From: a virus
IMG/VR virus record: IMGVR_UViG_3300032092_000196
Coordinates: 1-27,011 of that record
Length of the DNA stretch: 27,011 bases
Direction: 5' to 3' (one strand)
Under the pieces are notes generated by a model. It did no database searches. It was not told the DNA's origin and saw nothing but the letters and a program-made list of their open reading frames with translations. Position 1 is the stretch's first letter, and each line of letters begins with the position of its first letter. Made by a program: the position numbers and the translations under genes. Of the stretch, positions 1,561 to 9,290 are shown in pieces.

Positions 1561-4128
1561 ATGGCACTAAGTCCTCAATTATTGCAATTCAAGAGTTCGG
1601 GTGTTTATCGTCTAGAATTCGATAAATCACAAACTACGAACTTTGCTACAGAGACTATCAGATTGGTAGTTGGTCACTCTAAAAAAGGTCCATACAATAC
1701 TCCAGTGTTTGTTGAGACAGTAGAAGATTTCAATGCGGTCTTCGGCGGTATCGACAGAAACCTAGAGAAGAAGGGTATGTTCTTCCACAGATCAGCACTT
1801 GCTGCTCTTACTAGAGGCCCAATCTTAGCCTTAAACTTATCAACATTCGAAGCTAGCGATGAAATCAGCTATGTTGCTCCAGTTACTACTGGTAGCGATC
1901 ATACTGCATTATCACTTTCAGGTAGCGATGAATATACTAAGTTTTTTAACACTGATAAATTCTGGTTCCCTAGTGATGAAGCTACTATTTCTACAATCGG
2001 TCAAAACGATGACAGAATTATTAACTTTATTAACATCAAACAAGAGCCAATTACTATTATCGTAAGAAAAGCACAGGATGTATCTACATTCGATATTACT
2101 GCTAGAGAATGGTATGGTGAAGGTAATGTACCTGAATTCTTAAATGAAAAAGATTACTTATCAGATTTCATGATTGATGTATTCGTATTTAAAGGCGAAT
2201 TCAATCCTGCTACTCTTGCAAATGATCCAATCTACGCAAATTATTTTAACGCAAAAGGTTTATTGAAAGGTCAATTAGACGCTTTCTCTAACCTAAGACA
2301 AGTTTCATTAATTGCCAACTACACTGGTTCATTAATCCCTAACTTCAAAGATCTTGAAGGTAGAAACTTATACATTGAAACAATCATTAACTCAGAAGCT
2401 AGAAGAACTGGTTTATTCTGTGCAGTTGATGAAGATGCAGTTACTAGCGATACTGGTACTAAAGTAGATTTAATTGGTCATACATTTGATAAAGATCAAA
2501 ACTATCAGTTACTTTCTTATATCGTTGACCAAGAATTAAATCCAACTGCTGGAACAACTGTAACTTTAACAAATCCTAACGTTTTAACTGTTAGTGGTTC
2601 AACTATGACTGTTGCACAAGATTTAACTTCATCTCTTGCAGTTGGTTCATTTATTGAAGCAGCTACTAGCGGTGAATATGTTGAAGTATTAAGCGTTGTT
2701 TTTGCAAGTGGTACTACAACAGTAACTTGCGATGGTGCAATTAAAACTTCATTAAATAACGCAACTAGCTTTAAGAAATATGCTATCACAACTGATAGAG
2801 TAATTCCTTATACTGGATCTGAATCAAACTTAGCCGGAAACGGTACAGTTACCGCAACATATGCAAACTTAGGTGGTGGTATTTTTACTTTTACTTATAG
2901 TGCTGCAATTTCAACTGTAACTCTTAAGAAAGGACACTATGTTCCTTCTGCTACTTCTGGTAGATTGGCTAAAATTAAATCAGTTACAAAATCTGTAGTT
3001 ACTTCTGGTGGTAATACAACCACAACAGTAACTGTAACAACTGATAATAACGTACCAAACACTTGGGGTGGTAGCTACCTAGTTTCTTTCGAAGAAGCTA
3101 CTTCAGTATACAAACCATTCGTTATTGCTAAAGCAACTATTGGTGATAAAACAATAACCGATTCTTTAAACGCAATCGTAGGAACTAACTTATTCAATGC
3201 GTTAGCTGACAAAGATTTAATTCTTTACAGATATATTGTTGATACTTTCGGTTCATTTGATACTGTTGATGGTATTCAAAACAAGAAAGAATTAGCTTAT
3301 CTTGCTCACGAGAGACAAAATGCTTCTGCAATCTTAAATGCACCAACCGTAGCTGATTTCAAAAAATCAACTAATCCATCTTTCACAGATGCTGATGGAG
3401 CATTTAGCGTAGAATACTTAAAAGATGGTGGAAACTTGGATAAAAATCCAACTGCATTCTATACTTTACCTTCAATCGCTGATGGTGCAAACTACGGATT
3501 TTATTATGGTCCAGGTTTAACAGTTAGAGAAAATGGTAAAGATATTGTTATCCCACCCGCAGCATACGTATCTAATAACTACATTGATAAATATTCAACT
3601 GCATTACCTTGGTCAATTATTGCTGGTCCAAGAAGAGGAGTTGTATCTGGAACTGGAGTTGTTGGAGTTGAATATGCATTCGATAAAACTGATAGAGACG
3701 TATTAGAACCATTTGGTATTAACCCAATCGTATTCCAAAGAGGTGTAGGTTTAACAATTCTTGGTAATAAAACTGCGCAACAGTCAATTAAATCAGCGCT
3801 TTCTTCTGCTCACGTAAGAGAAGTATTGATTTATATCCAAGAAGGTTTAGCTAACATTCTAAAAGGATACGTATTTGAATTCAATACAGCTCAAACTAGA
3901 CTTGAAATCAAAACTTTAGCTGATGCATTTATGGAATCAGTTAAAGCTGATCAAGGTGTATATGACTTCAAAAACATTATTGACCAAACAAATAATACAA
4001 ATGAAGTTATTGACAACAACATCGGTATCTTAGATACTTTTGTTGAACCAGTTAAAGGTCTTGAAATCGTTGTTCACAGAACTACAGTATTAAATACTGG
4101 CGAAATTCAAACTGGAAACTTCAGCTAA
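1561..4128 (+). CDS. Contractile tail sheath protein (T4 gp18-like), with large insert
   Basis: This subunit forms the contractile tube around the tail. The N-terminal segment (SSGVYRLEFDKSQ, then LVVGHSKKGPYNTP and a FGGIDRNLEKKGMFF region) and the C-terminal segment (REVLIYIQEGLANILKGYVF, EVIDNNIGILDTFVEPVKG) have the typical sheath layout: both ends of the chain form the conserved core that meshes neighbouring subunits. At 855 residues it exceeds T4 gp18 (659). The extra length fits a Thr/Val/Ser-rich, beta-looking stretch at about residues 325-520, probably an outward-facing decoration domain. It is followed at once by the tube gene, each with its own late-type octamer. The start ATG follows an A-rich leader with no strong ribosome binding site. 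The family assignment is firm; the role of the insert is inferred. Confidence 0.93.
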   Translation: MALSPQLLQFKSSGVYRLEFDKSQTTNFATETIRLVVGHSKKGPYNTPVFVETVEDFNAVFGGIDRNLEKKGMFFHRSALAALTRGPILALNLSTFEASDEISYVAPVTTGSDHTALSLSGSDEYTKFFNTDKFWFPSDEATISTIGQNDDRIINFINIKQEPITIIVRKAQDVSTFDITAREWYGEGNVPEFLNEKDYLSDFMIDVFVFKGEFNPATLANDPIYANYFNAKGLLKGQLDAFSNLRQVSLIANYTGSLIPNFKDLEGRNLYIETIINSEARRTGLFCAVDEDAVTSDTGTKVDLIGHTFDKDQNYQLLSYIVDQELNPTAGTTVTLTNPNVLTVSGSTMTVAQDLTSSLAVGSFIEAATSGEYVEVLSVVFASGTTTVTCDGAIKTSLNNATSFKKYAITTDRVIPYTGSESNLAGNGTVTATYANLGGGIFTFTYSAAISTVTLKKGHYVPSATSGRLAKIKSVTKSVVTSGGNTTTTVTVTTDNNVPNTWGGSYLVSFEEATSVYKPFVIAKATIGDKTITDSLNAIVGTNLFNALADKDLILYRYIVDTFGSFDTVDGIQNKKELAYLAHERQNASAILNAPTVADFKKSTNPSFTDADGAFSVEYLKDGGNLDKNPTAFYTLPSIADGANYGFYYGPGLTVRENGKDIVIPPAAYVSNNYIDKYSTALPWSIIAGPRRGVVSGTGVVGVEYAFDKTDRDVLEPFGINPIVFQRGVGLTILGNKTAQQSIKSALSSAHVREVLIYIQEGLANILKGYVFEFNTAQTRLEIKTLADAFMESVKADQGVYDFKNIIDQTNNTNEVIDNNIGILDTFVEPVKGLEIVVHRTTVLNTGEIQTGNFS

Positions 4129-4161: not shown

Positions 4162-4716
4162 ATGGCACTACCACATTATTCACAAGACCAGACTAGTAGA
4201 AAAGGTTCACAATGGGAACCGGTACAGTCGAACCTCTTTGAGGTGACAGTTATTCCTCCAGCTGGTGTAAAAGGTGCTCCACTGCTTTTACAACACGTAA
4301 ACAGTATTGGCGGTTTGGATCTATATAAAGAAGTTTCTGAAGTTACACAAAAGTATAAGTTCGCTACACGTTCTTATGCTGGTATGCCAGATAACACATC
4401 ATTAGATGTTAATATCAACTTCTCTTTGAACTTAAATGATTCAAATCAAGCTTACCTTTACAAAACCATGAGAGAATGGTATAATTTACAATACGATCCT
4501 CAAACTGGTTTAATGGGTCTTAAGAAAGACTACACTGGAACAATTATTATCGTTCAGTTCAATAGAGCTGGAGATATTTACAGAACAATTACATTAGAAG
4601 ATTGCTTCATTAAATCAGGTTTACCATTTACAAATGAGTTAAACTATGAAACAACTGACCCAGCTCAGTTAGAAGTTACTTGGAGATGTGATGCTTTCAA
4701 AGAAGTATTAGCTTAA
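4162..4716 (+). CDS. Tail tube protein (T4 gp19-like)
   Basis: This is the major inner tube subunit through which DNA passes. It has 184 residues, against 163 for T4 gp19. The sequence follows the tube-fold pattern: an N-terminal region leading into SNLFEVTVIPP, a central loop with SYAGMPDNTSLDVNINFSL, the helix YLYKTMREWYNLQYD, then GTIIIVQFNRAGDIYRTITL and the closing strand LEVTWRCDAF. It sits directly after the sheath gene, the order found in T4 and most contractile-tailed phages, and is followed by a strong hairpin terminator, consistent with a separate abundant transcript. The call rests on both sequence pattern and position. Confidence 0.93.
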   Translation: MALPHYSQDQTSRKGSQWEPVQSNLFEVTVIPPAGVKGAPLLLQHVNSIGGLDLYKEVSEVTQKYKFATRSYAGMPDNTSLDVNINFSLNLNDSNQAYLYKTMREWYNLQYDPQTGLMGLKKDYTGTIIIVQFNRAGDIYRTITLEDCFIKSGLPFTNELNYETTDPAQLEVTWRCDAFKEVLA

Positions 4717-4789: not shown

Positions 4790-5008
4790 ATGTCAACTAA
4801 ATTAACCAGAAAACTTCAAGTCCTTCTCACGGATGAAGAAGTTCAAGACTTAAATGTCATCATCTTAAATGATGCCATTGAAAATGGTCAACGACCTATG
4901 TCCGTTTCTGCTTTTATTAGAGAATTAATAAGAAAAGAAATTGATCGTCGACCAACTGAAATAAAAACATGGGACAAAGATCGCGTAAAACATTTAAAAT
5001 CAAAGTAA
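4790..5008 (+). CDS. Small ribbon-helix-helix-like protein
   Basis: This 72-residue protein has the outline of a ribbon-helix-helix (Arc/CopG/MetJ type) DNA-binding domain: a basic N-terminal strand (LTRKLQVLLT), a first helix (EEVQDLNVIILNDAIENG) and a second helix beginning MSVSAFIRELIRKEID. The SVSAFIRELI segment resembles the second helix of CopG-like proteins. The C-terminal 20 residues are charged. It lies between the tube and hub genes with its own terminator and octamer upstream, and the next gene starts 3 nt after it. It could be a transcriptional regulator made late in infection, or a small tail-assembly protein with a coincidental pattern. No catalytic motifs are seen. Confidence 0.6.
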   Translation: MSTKLTRKLQVLLTDEEVQDLNVIILNDAIENGQRPMSVSAFIRELIRKEIDRRPTEIKTWDKDRVKHLKSK

Positions 5009-5011
5009 TTT

Positions 5012-5971
5012 ATGAGCACAAAAAAGAATCAAGAAAACGAAGAGTTCAACATGGAAGAACAATATCGTAAAATGGTAGAAGAGAAAGAATCTAACAAGGA
5101 AGAGAGAATCGACTTGGGAAGAGTAGACATGGACCGCTATGCAAATCAAAAGGCACAAGATCCAGATTTACATTTAGGGTTTCATTCAGTTGATATATCT
5201 GCATTGCCTTCAGGCGGTAGATTTTATCCAAGTGATGCTAAAATGGCTATTAGATCTGCACAAGTTGCTGAAGTTAGACATTTTTCAACCATCGATGAGA
5301 GTAATCTTTTAGATATTGAAGATAAATTAAACCACATTGTAAAGAATTGCACTAGGTTCACTTCAGGCACGAAAGTGTTATCATATAAAGATATTCTAGA
5401 AGAAGATCGTATTTATATCTTATTATCAATCCGTGATTTAACTTTTCCAGATCCAGAAACTAAATTAACTGTTAAAGCTTCAGCAAAAGATGGAGAAGAA
5501 TTTGAAGCTGAAATTAACGCTCGTTATTTTCAACTTTCTAGAGTTCCTGAAGAAATTGAAAAGTATTATGATGATGAAAAAAGAGCTTTTGCAATTCAAA
5601 CTAGAAGCTTTGGAACTATTTACATGAAACCACCATCAATTGGTGTTATGGAATCTGTGACTAACTATATTAAAGTTCGTCAAGTTGAAAAGAAACCATG
5701 GGATCAATCATATCTACAAATCCTTCCATATATTACATTAGATTGGAGAGGATTTAATGATGAAAAAATCTTTAAAGGCGAAGTTGAATTTCATAGTTGG
5801 AATACAACTAAATATTCATTAATATATCGTTTAGCTGAAAAAATGAAAATTGGGGTACGTCCAGAAATGTTGGTACCACACGGGGATGAGGAGGTCCTCG
5901 TACCCATTGGCTTTCGTGATGGGATCAAATCTCTTTTCGTTGTTCAAGATATCGCTTCAGAACTTCTTTAA
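5012..5971 (+). CDS. Baseplate hub / tail-assembly protein (T4 gp26/gp51-like), zero-frame part
   Basis: This 319-residue protein has an acidic N-terminus (to about residue 50) followed by a domain whose pattern matches the T4 gp26/gp51 baseplate family: ALPSGGRFYPSDAKMAIRS, then a segment with E/D-rich helices, and DILEEDRIYILLSIRDLTFP. In T4 these proteins help to assemble the central hub. The gene lies between tail tube and tape measure, the usual place of tail-assembly chaperones in other tailed phages. It ends ASELL-stop at 5969-5971, while the +1 frame is open across this point and continues with chaperone-like sequence. The natural product may therefore be longer through +1 frameshifting. 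The family call is by pattern only. Confidence 0.75.
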   Translation: MSTKKNQENEEFNMEEQYRKMVEEKESNKEERIDLGRVDMDRYANQKAQDPDLHLGFHSVDISALPSGGRFYPSDAKMAIRSAQVAEVRHFSTIDESNLLDIEDKLNHIVKNCTRFTSGTKVLSYKDILEEDRIYILLSIRDLTFPDPETKLTVKASAKDGEEFEAEINARYFQLSRVPEEIEKYYDDEKRAFAIQTRSFGTIYMKPPSIGVMESVTNYIKVRQVEKKPWDQSYLQILPYITLDWRGFNDEKIFKGEVEFHSWNTTKYSLIYRLAEKMKIGVRPEMLVPHGDEEVLVPIGFRDGIKSLFVVQDIASELL

Positions 5972-5972
5972 G
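5966..5972 (+). other. Candidate +1 programmed frameshift site CTT-TAA-G
   Basis: The zero frame reads CTT CTT TAA G. A leucyl-tRNA on the last CTT (5966-5968) could slip one base onto TTT and continue at AAG (5970), avoiding the stop. This is the same arrangement as the CUU-UGA-C site of bacterial prfB. No strong Shine-Dalgarno-like stimulator is visible upstream. The downstream frame then reads without interruption to 6221. Confidence 0.5.
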
Positions 5973-5987
5973 ACGAAATTCTATCTT

Positions 5988-6221
5988 ATGTACCATTTAC
6001 ATACTCAACCATCGGAGATCGATAAGTTAGAGTATTATGAATTTTGGTATATTGTTAAAGATTTGGCTGACTTTATTAAGAAACAAAATGACGGTCAGAA
6101 AGGTCAAGAAGAAGAGGCTTATGGTAAATATGGAGATCCTTCTAAAATAGCAAAATCAAAAATGCCTAATATGAAGACGCCATCATTTAAAACCCCTAGC
6201 TTCAAGACACCTAAGTTTTAA
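5988..6221 (+). CDS. C-terminal extension or separate small tail-assembly protein
   Basis: Read from the ATG at 5988 this gives 77 residues: MYHLHTQPSEIDKLEYYEFW, then IVKDLADFIKK, a charged linker, and a C-terminal tail with the repeated motif KTPSFKTPSFKTPKF. If ribosomes shift +1 at CTT-TAA, the frame begins at 5970 and adds KTKFYL before this Met, giving a fused product of about 400 residues with the upstream hub protein. Helices of the type YLxxHLH...EIDxLEYYEFW occur at the C-termini of phage hub and tail-chaperone proteins, which favours a fusion. There is no convincing ribosome binding site before 5988. The tape-measure gene follows 36 nt later. I am confident that this is coding and less so about how it is expressed. 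Confidence 0.75.
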   Translation: MYHLHTQPSEIDKLEYYEFWYIVKDLADFIKKQNDGQKGQEEEAYGKYGDPSKIAKSKMPNMKTPSFKTPSFKTPKF

Positions 6222-6225
6222 CAAG

Positions 6226-6233
6226 GATATATA
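6226..6233 (+). promoter_or_regulatory. Candidate late promoter octamer GATATATA (tape measure)
   Basis: GATATATA followed by GTAAAAAATAG lies 24 nt before the TTG at 6258. This spacing matches that of the sheath and tube octamers and supports the TTG as the start of the downstream gene. Confidence 0.55.
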
Positions 6234-6257
6234 GTAAAAAATAGTTTTGATTCTGTT

Positions 6258-9200
6258 TTGAACATTTTTAAAAGTGCCTTTGAAAGGCTTTCGATAGAAA
6301 ATCAACAACAATTAGTAGCATCTGCCCAGGTAACATCAATAGCTGTTTCCCCGGGCGGTGCTCTTTTTGGTAAAGTTGAGGAGATGGTAAAACTGTTAAA
6401 GCAAATTGCAGTTAACACTGCTGCTTCTGCAAAAGGAGGCGGCGGAGGAGGCGGCGGAGGTCTAGGAATTGGAAATGCAATTGCATTAAAAATCGTTGGC
6501 GGAAAAGGTTTAGAAGGAATCGGTAAAGGATTAGCAGCAATCGTTGAGGCTATCGAATCAATGAAAAGCACTTCTAAAGAATTTAAAGATAAAGCAGAAG
6601 CCTTAGTATTAACAATAGATGCTCTATCAAAAATAGGTCCAGCAATTCTTAAATTTGCTGGTTACCTATTCTTAGCAACACCACTTTTAGTAGTTGGTGC
6701 GCTAGCCGCTCCATTATTTGGATTATCATTATTTATTATCACTAAAGTTTTACAAATGGCATCCGCTCCATTGTCGGATCCAAAAACACAACAAGCATTA
6801 ATTGCAATGGGTGATGTGGCAAAGGCCATTCTACTTTTAGGAGTTGCATTAGTACTTGCAACCGTTTTATATCCAGCCGGAATATCTGCATTACCATATA
6901 TTGTTTTAACATTATTAGCATTAGGTGGCGTATTTTGGTTATTAGATAAGATGAACATTGAAAAATCAATGAAACAAGTTTCAATTGGTTTAATGTTTGC
7001 TGCGGGAGCTATCGTTCTATTAGGCGTAGCATTTTTATTAGTTGATACAATGATGCAAGCAATGGACGATCCTGCTATAACCTTACTAATGGTAATGGGA
7101 ATGGTTGTCGGAGTAGCATTGGTTATGTACTTGGCTGGTAAATTTGCTAAAGAAATATTTTTAGGAAGTTTAGTTATGATTGTTGCTGCAATTCCAATTA
7201 TTTTACTAGGAGTTGCTGTTGCAATATTTGCTGAATCTATTACACCGGATGAAGCTGGATGGATAACAATCGGTCAGATCGGTGCATTAGTTACTGGAGT
7301 AGGTCTTGTTATGGGACTTGCTGGCGCCGCTTCAGGATTTATTCTTGCTGGTGCCGCCGCAATGATTGTTGCTGGTATAGCATTATTACTTGTTTCAGTG
7401 GGCGCTGCGGCTATGGCTAAACTATTTAATGACACAGATATGAGTAAAATGCTCGGAGATTCTGGTCATGAAACTGAAGGATTCCTTGGTTTTGGTGCAG
7501 GAAGAATGATGAGTAATATGGAATGGTTATTATTATCTATTGCTCGTTCATTTACACTTAGTCCTGTAAATATCGCATCAATGTACGCTACCGCACCCGC
7601 AATGGTTATGGTTGGAGTTGCATTAGCAACAGTTGCTTATGGTATTAAAAAAGTACAAGGTTTAAATATTGATTATGATGTTTTACCAGATCAAATTGGT
7701 AAATTAGTTACAGTTTTAGCTGGAGCTTTTGGCGCAATTGGTGAAAGATTTCCAGGAGGTAGAAAAAGTGTTTTAAGCCGTATTTTTGGAGGTGGATCTC
7801 AATCTGCTGTAGCCGATGGTATTGATGCGGTATTAGGAATGGGAGATGCTTTATCTTCAATTGCACAAGGCGTGCAAGCAATGGCTGACCTAAAGTTTCC
7901 AATTTATACAGGAACTAAAATTACAGGTTATTTTACACTATCTAGTGACACGTTTAAAAAGGTTAATGATAATATCAATTTAATTGTAAATTCACTAAGT
8001 ACAACCTTTGGTGAATTAGGACTTAAATATCCAGGTGGTAAGAAAACCTTCTTACAAGGAGTTTTTGGAGGTGGATCTCAATCTCCAGTCGCCGACGGTA
8101 TTGCCGCGGTAATGGGAATGGGAGATGTATTAACTTCAATTGCCGGTGGAGTACAATCAATGGCTGATCTTAAGTTTCCAATTTATGAAGGAACTAAAAT
8201 TGTTGGTTATAATACTCTAGATTCTGGAGCATTTGATAGATTAAAAGAAAATATTAGAAATATTGTTGGTTCTCTAGCAGATGTATTTGGTGAAATTGGT
8301 TTAGAATACCCTGGAGGTACGAAAAGTTTCATGAACATGATTTTTGGTGGAGGAGGTAATGCAGTTACTGATGGTATTGGTGCAGTTCAAGGTATGGGTG
8401 CTGCAGTTGCTGAAATTGCCAAAGGAGTTCAAGCAATGGCTGACCTTAAAATTCCAATCTACAAAGATGGAAAAATTGTTGGTTATGAATCAATGGGAGC
8501 CGATGCAATTACTAAAGTAACTCAAAATATTCGTCAACTTGTTATTAGTTTGACTGGAACTATGGGTGAGATTGGTAATAATCCAGATGCTCAAAATGAC
8601 TGGGGTTGGTTTGGTTCTTCTAAAATCGAAGATGGTGTTGAAATTGTAACAAGTTTCGCAGAACCAATTTTAAAAATTGCACAAGCTGCAAAAACATTTA
8701 TGGAAGTAAATGTTGATCCGGCTGCTTTAACTGGAAAAATTCAAGGAATTATTAGCGGTATGACAACTGCTCTTTCTGCAGCTGGAGAAGATGCTGAACA
8801 ACAAGAAAGTTTTGTTCTTGTTTTAGGAGATGTTGCTAAGAAACTTGAAGAAATTGGAAAGAATATTGATCCATGGGTTAAATTTGTTGACAACTTTAAG
8901 AAGTATGTTGATGATATGGGTCGATTAAAAGATACATTAAATGCATTTGATAAAGTTAACTTGAAATTTACAAGTGATATGTTCCAAGGTTTAGCATATC
9001 TTTCAGGTTATAAAGGTCGCGGTTCAGTTGACCAAATGAGTAAAGCTCTCAATGATTCAATTAAGCATCTTGCTGATATGATTGAAGAATTTAAGAATAA
9101 AGTTTCAACTCCACCAGCACCAACCGGAACACCAGCACCCGCAGGTACTACAGCACCGGCTCCTGGTAAATCTACAACACCAGGTCCGGCAGGAAAACCT

Positions 9201-9290
9201 GCTCCAGTTGATAATAAACCTGGAATTACATTATCTCAACTAAGAACATTACTAGAAAGTGTTACTATCAATGTTAGAGATGATAATTAA
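6258..9290 (+). CDS. Tape measure protein
   Basis: This 1010-residue protein follows the hub/chaperone genes, the standard position of the tape measure, which sets tail length and is ejected ahead of the DNA. In order it shows an N-terminal helix region, a run of nine glycines (residues 60-68), a long hydrophobic stretch (about 130-390) with several possible membrane-spanning helices, three 93-residue tandem repeats (about 480-765), a helical region, and a Pro/Thr/Ala-rich linker (about 950-990) before a short C-terminal domain. There is no in-frame ATG after the previous stop. The TTG at 6258 fits the octamer spacing and is used here; an ATG at 6384 would delete 42 plausible residues. The function is inferred from position, length and composition. 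Confidence 0.8.
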   Translation: MNIFKSAFERLSIENQQQLVASAQVTSIAVSPGGALFGKVEEMVKLLKQIAVNTAASAKGGGGGGGGGLGIGNAIALKIVGGKGLEGIGKGLAAIVEAIESMKSTSKEFKDKAEALVLTIDALSKIGPAILKFAGYLFLATPLLVVGALAAPLFGLSLFIITKVLQMASAPLSDPKTQQALIAMGDVAKAILLLGVALVLATVLYPAGISALPYIVLTLLALGGVFWLLDKMNIEKSMKQVSIGLMFAAGAIVLLGVAFLLVDTMMQAMDDPAITLLMVMGMVVGVALVMYLAGKFAKEIFLGSLVMIVAAIPIILLGVAVAIFAESITPDEAGWITIGQIGALVTGVGLVMGLAGAASGFILAGAAAMIVAGIALLLVSVGAAAMAKLFNDTDMSKMLGDSGHETEGFLGFGAGRMMSNMEWLLLSIARSFTLSPVNIASMYATAPAMVMVGVALATVAYGIKKVQGLNIDYDVLPDQIGKLVTVLAGAFGAIGERFPGGRKSVLSRIFGGGSQSAVADGIDAVLGMGDALSSIAQGVQAMADLKFPIYTGTKITGYFTLSSDTFKKVNDNINLIVNSLSTTFGELGLKYPGGKKTFLQGVFGGGSQSPVADGIAAVMGMGDVLTSIAGGVQSMADLKFPIYEGTKIVGYNTLDSGAFDRLKENIRNIVGSLADVFGEIGLEYPGGTKSFMNMIFGGGGNAVTDGIGAVQGMGAAVAEIAKGVQAMADLKIPIYKDGKIVGYESMGADAITKVTQNIRQLVISLTGTMGEIGNNPDAQNDWGWFGSSKIEDGVEIVTSFAEPILKIAQAAKTFMEVNVDPAALTGKIQGIISGMTTALSAAGEDAEQQESFVLVLGDVAKKLEEIGKNIDPWVKFVDNFKKYVDDMGRLKDTLNAFDKVNLKFTSDMFQGLAYLSGYKGRGSVDQMSKALNDSIKHLADMIEEFKNKVSTPPAPTGTPAPAGTTAPAPGKSTTPGPAGKPAPVDNKPGITLSQLRTLLESVTINVRDDN
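7752..8588 (+). repeat. Three tandem 93-codon repeats in tape measure gene
   Basis: Units begin at the conserved PGG codons at 7752, 8031 and 8310, exactly 279 nt apart. Each contains (F/Y)PGG, GGG, (V/A)xDGI, GMG, an A-rich GVQ(A/S)MADLK segment, PIY and GY. The repeats have diverged in DNA sequence but keep exact length, so they are old and under selection. A fourth, degenerate unit may follow. Confidence 0.85.

Follow-up and report, generated by a model that had tools for sequence, protein, structure and literature searches.

In the window analysed here (the whole 27,011-nucleotide stretch, positions 1 to 27,011 of IMG/VR virus record IMGVR_UViG_3300032092_000196), an open frame of 319 codons on the plus strand (5012–5971) terminates in GAA CTT CTT TAA, and the +1 frame, open from approximately −122 nt relative to this stop and with its first listed start at 5850, continues to position 6221. 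Past the 0-frame stop the +1 frame reads KTKFYLMYHLHTQPSEIDKLEYYEF..., and a fusion of the 0-frame N-terminal part with this extension comprises 402 amino acids. The arrangement raises the question of whether a single gene yields two proteins and, if so, where ribosomes change frame. The first-pass annotation had described the stop after CTT CTT and the open +1 frame correctly, and had proposed that the two are joined by a stop-driven slip at CTT-TAA, as in prfB. Sequence comparison makes it probable that two proteins with one N-terminal part are produced, in the manner of lambda gpG and gpGT, by a +1 slip at UUU_CGU.

The window starts with a terminase-like ORF (assigned from position and sequence reading), and a tail sheath gene occupies 1561–4128. 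The upstream neighbour of the gene under study encodes a tail tube protein (4162–4716, plus strand; phrog_45, E = 1e-7; phrog_3629, E = 1e-6). Its downstream neighbour, on the same strand, is an ORF of 1,010 amino acids (6258–9290) with a TTG start, long hydrophobic stretches and a match to the tail protein family phrog_788 (1e-4), which from its size and position is likely to encode the tape measure protein. These flanks bear out the earlier placement of the gene between tail tube and tape measure, the location also occupied by lambda G/GT. A small ORF between the tail tube gene and the frameshifted gene (4790–5008) has a weak ribbon-helix-helix match (PF01402, E = 0.028, below the cut-off).

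An IMG/VR scan returned 309 loci encoding the 0-frame protein, of which the best 80 were used. A further 31 GenBank records are mostly Bacteroidota phages (Prevotella Lak, Chryseobacterium MA9V, Flavobacterium MaF61 and Tenacibaculum PTm1/PTm5/pT24), plus Sphingomonas phage PAU and uncultured phage genomes of 462–735 kb, and two more scans contributed 7 and 64 loci. A scan seeded with MA9V found no loci, and no relatives were found in bacterial genome contigs with the query used. In total, 162 relatives with identities down to ~21% were parsed; the sequences are akin, and counts among them are not counts of independent events. All 162 carry a conserved extension in the +1 frame, and none was found in the −1 or 0 frame. 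This supports the proposal of a conserved +1 frameshift joining the two frames, and sequencing error and chance are excluded as explanations. A lone metagenome contig, taken alone, could hold an indel, but the same break recurs across 162 sequences, contigs as well as complete cultured genomes, and is accompanied by strong dual coding; a sequencing error or decayed gene, already refuted by these relatives, has a negligible probability.

Evidence that both frames are translated upstream of the stop comes from a codon-level analysis of 37, then 33, non-redundant sequences, in which 0-frame synonymous differences nearly vanish over the last 11–15 codons. Within the overlap (5916–5968, plus strand; RDGIKSLFVVQDIASELL in the 0 frame, VMGSNLFSLFKISLQNFF in the +1 frame), third codon positions are fixed and first positions are variable, with most first-position changes being synonymous in the +1 frame (checked by eye). 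This pattern therefore indicates that the +1 frame is translated before the 0-frame stop, and it is found independently in a megaphage clade whose proteins are only ~25–30% identical to that of the window. Across most of the overlap, synonymous O/E is 0.00–0.15 for the window clade and 0.00–0.36 for the megaphage clade; outside it, comparably low values are confined to the elements GAGGAGGTC and TTT_C described below. In simulations that kept the 0-frame protein and redrew synonymous codons, +1 amino acid identity over the overlap was 0.419 (s.d. 0.016) for the window clade, compared with 0.816 observed (z ~24), and 0.435 for the megaphage clade, compared with 0.877 observed (z 34). The corresponding upstream controls gave z values of 1.0 and 4.4, the latter because shared ancestry inflates z. 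No +1 stop occurs in the overlap in any of 29 relatives, as opposed to a mean of 15 of 29 in the simulations (minimum 8). The +1 frame is thus under protein-level selection and translated from ~18 codons upstream of the 0-frame stop. Among 25 divergent members, Ser-Leu is invariant in this frame and F-S-L-[F/I] is near-invariant; ISLQNFFK is a peptide encoded upstream of the window's 0-frame stop in the +1 frame only.

The position of the shift is bounded on both sides. On the 5′ side, 11 of 33 non-redundant sequences have a +1-frame stop 1–4 codons ahead of the shifted TTC; on the 3′ side, the limit is set by the onset of dual coding. TTT_C lies between the two. Because +1 selection precedes the stop and the +1 frame opens just 5′ of TTT, the shift was mapped to TTT_CGT (5912–5917), the proposed site TTT_C itself being 5912–5915 (plus strand) within GGC TTT CGT (5909–5917). 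TTT_C is present at this site, 54 nt 5′ of the 0-frame stop, in 160 of 162 relatives, the exceptions being MA9V-2 and LR756504; in PTm1 it is found six codons further upstream. The next codon is CGT/CGC, CCC, CCA, CCT, CAA or CGA across loci. Where it specifies arginine it is CGN in 22 of 22 cases, whereas AGA/AGG make up 80% of arginine codons elsewhere in these genes. Window-gene usage per 1,000 codons is 7.5 for CGT, 0.7 for CCC and 18.8 for AGA, values that describe usage and not decoding speed. In MA9V-2 (L084), TTT_C is found instead further downstream, at ATT TTT CTA.

A P-site UUU followed by C is also the core of the influenza A PA-X +1 frameshift at UCC UUU CGU (PMC8310308), in which UUU slips to UUC and with which the UUU CGU of the window is identical; PA-X differs in its eukaryotic host, its lack of an SD-like element and its unrelated gene. 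As judged from these patterns, the shift is a +1 slippage at UUU_C as in PA-X, and not a stop-driven event of the prfB type. The slip of the ribosome at TTT_C, its efficiency, its +1 (not −2) direction and the exact junction are what we infer. Most ribosomes would read 5012–5971 to give the 319-residue, gp26-like short form. A fraction would slip +1 at UUU_CGU, peptidyl-tRNA-Phe re-pairing from UUU to UUC during slow decoding of the next codon, and would go on to complete a 402-residue long form with a gp51-like, T-like helical extension (5916–6221, plus strand; 101 amino acids after the shift, then TAA). The predicted junction peptide in a window-like phage is ...EEVLVPIGFVMGSNLFSLFK.

Near the gene end, strong constraint is otherwise seen only at GAG GAG GTC (5888–5896, plus strand; synonymous O/E 0.02). 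This SD-like element, GAGGAGGTC (AGGAGGT), ends 15 nt before the shift codon and is proposed to act as a stimulator. Its two glutamate positions use GAG in 56 of 56 Glu codons in the window clade, compared with 22% elsewhere in family genes, and likewise in 56 of 56 in the megaphage clade, compared with 25% elsewhere. In 127 of the 160 TTT_C loci, exactly 17 nt separate the end of GGAGG from TTT, and GAGGTC occurs at the same distance (15 nt) in PAU, LR756500 and LR756501. GGAGG would thus be part of the signal, probably through pairing with 16S rRNA that slows the ribosome. In Bacteroidota hosts, ribosomes hide the anti-SD and rarely use SD sequences for initiation. Against such a stimulatory role stands the 17-nt spacing, which exceeds the 3-nt distance in prfB and from which a +1 shift is not expected under mechanical models. 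RNAalifold detected no conserved RNA structure around the shift site. In MA9V-2, within codons −32 to −10 before its 0-frame stop at 5853, GAGAC replaces GGAGG. The Chryseobacterium host group has an altered anti-SD, UCUCA (PMC8710568), to which GAGA in MA9V-2 is complementary; as a lead from one case, the SD-like element may track the host anti-SD.

The stop-driven alternative, a prfB-like slip of tRNA-Leu at CTT-TAA (5966–5971, the 0-frame terminator), fits the two frames, and in the window clade CTT TAA is invariant and is preceded in many members by GGAGAA just upstream. Yet this conservation arises because both frames constrain those bases, and between clades the codon before the stop varies (CTT, ATT, GAA, AAA, TTT, TCT, TTA or GAG), GAA and GAG being unable to re-pair in +1; the stop itself is TAA in most relatives and TGA in PTm1. 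In place of the GGA of GGAGAA, the window and other members have TCA, GAC, GAA or ACA. Such a slip would, moreover, predict no +1 selection before the stop, precisely where z values of 24–34 are seen. In prfB (RF2), AGGGGG is followed after 3 nt by CTTTGAC (PMC12421855), so that CTT slips with an in-frame TGA in the A site; spacing and context at CTT-TAA are unlike this, and the conserved signal is instead TTT_C, with no adjacent stop and with TTT 17 nt from GGAGG or 15 nt from GAGGTC. What is shared with prfB is the +1 direction, an upstream SD-like sequence and the host phylum, prfB frameshifting being known from Flavobacterium johnsoniae (PMC8710568). CTT-TAA with GGAGAA as its SD had been favoured by the first 47 loci and was abandoned in the light of distant relatives and the codon-position patterns; we now regard it as very improbable. 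The first-pass annotation had called for an alignment of relatives to see whether the frame overlap and CTT-TAA are conserved: the former is, the latter is not between clades.

Slippage at UUU_C must also be weighed against a separate overlapping gene with its own start in the overlap, the extension then being a free small protein made by termination–reinitiation or internal initiation. Candidate starts can be named in several groups: most of the window clade has GTG at −53/−50 nt, the megaphage clade has ATG at −26 nt, MaF61 has ATG at −8 and −5, and in PAU an SD with ATG follows the stop. Deposited annotations also contain small separate ORFs, but no start is conserved among relatives and none lies nearby in Lak, LR756500, L097 or LR756501. 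In addition, constraint in the megaphage clade starts upstream of the ATG (codons −21 to −13), the GTG of the window clade arises from R-D/P-G codons and is lost where those change, and the annotated starts in MA9V, PAU and PTm1 leave out some of the extension together with the conserved FSL motif; a separate gene is accordingly quite unlikely. It is likewise unlikely, if less so, that the same frame is reached by −2 slippage, which phage Mu uses (PMC5009743), or by a +1 shift at one of the other codons from −20 to −12. In most of these sequence contexts a tRNA-Phe moved back by 2 nt could not pair again, and TTT_C with its upstream GGAGG is the better conserved element. NTT TTC at codons −12/−11, which is also conserved, was considered as a shift site and rejected: L095, L097 and Lak have CTA, TTA and ATA in place of NTT, and both the +1 constraint and TTT_C lie further upstream.

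The assignment to a T4 gp26/gp51-type gene made in the first-pass annotation is supported by family profiles. The window 0-frame protein itself matched only phrog_36717 (E = 2e-23) and did not reach PF12322 (T4_baseplate), for which the relative from PAU scored 33.9 bits (curated cut-off 24.5); 7 of 34 family members match PF12322/phrog_150 at E up to 0.1, phrog_150 being annotated 'baseplate hub'. Of 25 extensions, 16 hit phrog_634 ('baseplate hub assembly catalyst'), the lowest E being 9.3e-8 and that of the window 2.9e-3, and the window match begins inside the overlap, upstream of the 0-frame stop; when the whole record behind L003 is searched, the phrog_634 place is recovered at 2.8e-5. 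Both T4 proteins, gp26 and gp51, are members of PF12322/phrog_150, and the C-terminal part represented by phrog_634 is found in gp51 (residues 147–246, 1e-23) but not in gp26. By profile, then, the shared N-terminal part falls into the T4 gp26/gp51 family (T4_baseplate) and the extension into the gp51 C-terminal family; direct hhalign of the fusion alignment against the single T4 gp26 and gp51 sequences was not significant. A confident AlphaFold2 model of the 402-residue fusion (pLDDT 84.6) contains long helices at 315–329 and 341–373, in the extension. Among viral structures it best matches other members of the family and, after these, T4-like baseplate hub assembly proteins; solved structures gave no significant match by sequence or fold.

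The likeness to lambda G/GT (Xu 2004; reviewed in PMC5009743) extends from gene position to a shared N-terminal part, short and long products, and a C-terminal extension from an overlapping frame, the conserved overlap and change of frame being present here in 162 of 162 relatives with dual-coding z values of 24–34. It differs in that the usual −1 heptamer is replaced by a +1 shift at UUU_C and an SD-like element some way upstream, and in that the protein belongs to the T4_baseplate family, the likeness to gpG being one of layout. By position and logic, the short, gp26-like form is likely to correspond to G and the long, gp51-like form to GT. Made at a set ratio, the two forms would act like gpG and gpGT, both binding the tape measure and the long form recruiting the tail tube; this chaperone function is suggested by analogy. 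Frameshifted tail chaperones set the protein ratio for tails of the right length.

The G-T frameshift is described as conserved in long-tailed phages 'except T4', with −1, −2 and +1 shifts all known (Atkins et al. 2016, PMC5009743). In T4, gp26 and gp51 are of the same families but are two separate paralogous genes for which no frameshift is needed; since T4 thus has both forms as separate genes, its exception may be secondary. We compared 88 T4-like loci, comprising Syn9 (L172, 5500–9500) and 87 others (L173–L261) from cyanophages, KVP40, Delftia phiW-14, Sinorhizobium phiM19, Cronobacter LPCS28 and environmental contigs. At the gp26 stop of these loci the longest overlapping extension is in the −1 frame, gp51-like where read, and a canonical slippery heptamer, T_TTT_TTC (mostly) or T_TTT_TTT, lies near the stop in 87 of 88. 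The gene pair is the same and its extension lies in an overlapping frame here as well, and in cyanophages the pair also precedes a long gene resembling a tape measure gene, with the order unchanged; in the cyanophage/KVP40 type, however, the extension is in the −1 frame and T_TTT_TTC immediately precedes the stop. An apparently unannotated −1 frameshift at the gp26/gp51 junction is therefore predicted from sequence for cyanophage-type T4 relatives. In deposited records, the annotated gp51 is a short separate ORF, often with a truncated start.

We lean slightly towards the view that the T4 group is no exception and that an ancestral gp26/gp51 gene was frameshifted, with cyanophages using −1 at U_UUU_UUC, Bacteroidota phages +1 at UUU_C with GGAGG, and T4 a duplication instead. 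A search of the open-access literature found no paper on a gp26/gp51 frameshift. If the frameshift interpretation holds, T4 gp26 and gp51 would represent the short and the long form of the chaperone, a testable role so far only proposed, and phages of Bacteroidota would possess a deeply conserved +1 shift signal; the truncated annotation of the long form could be corrected in many phage genomes. The family, made up of large viruses of Bacteroidota, appears to use a trick that had been considered absent from T4-group phages.

Two features lie downstream of the extension stop, ahead of the tape measure gene. GATATATAG, which resembles a T4 late promoter, is conserved there (6226–6234 in the window; also in L026, L047 and others), and several relatives carry a hairpin resembling an intrinsic terminator. 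The tape measure gene may therefore be a separate transcription unit. No ATG lies near the start of the 6258 ORF, and relatives have ATG, GTG or TTG at the matching place.
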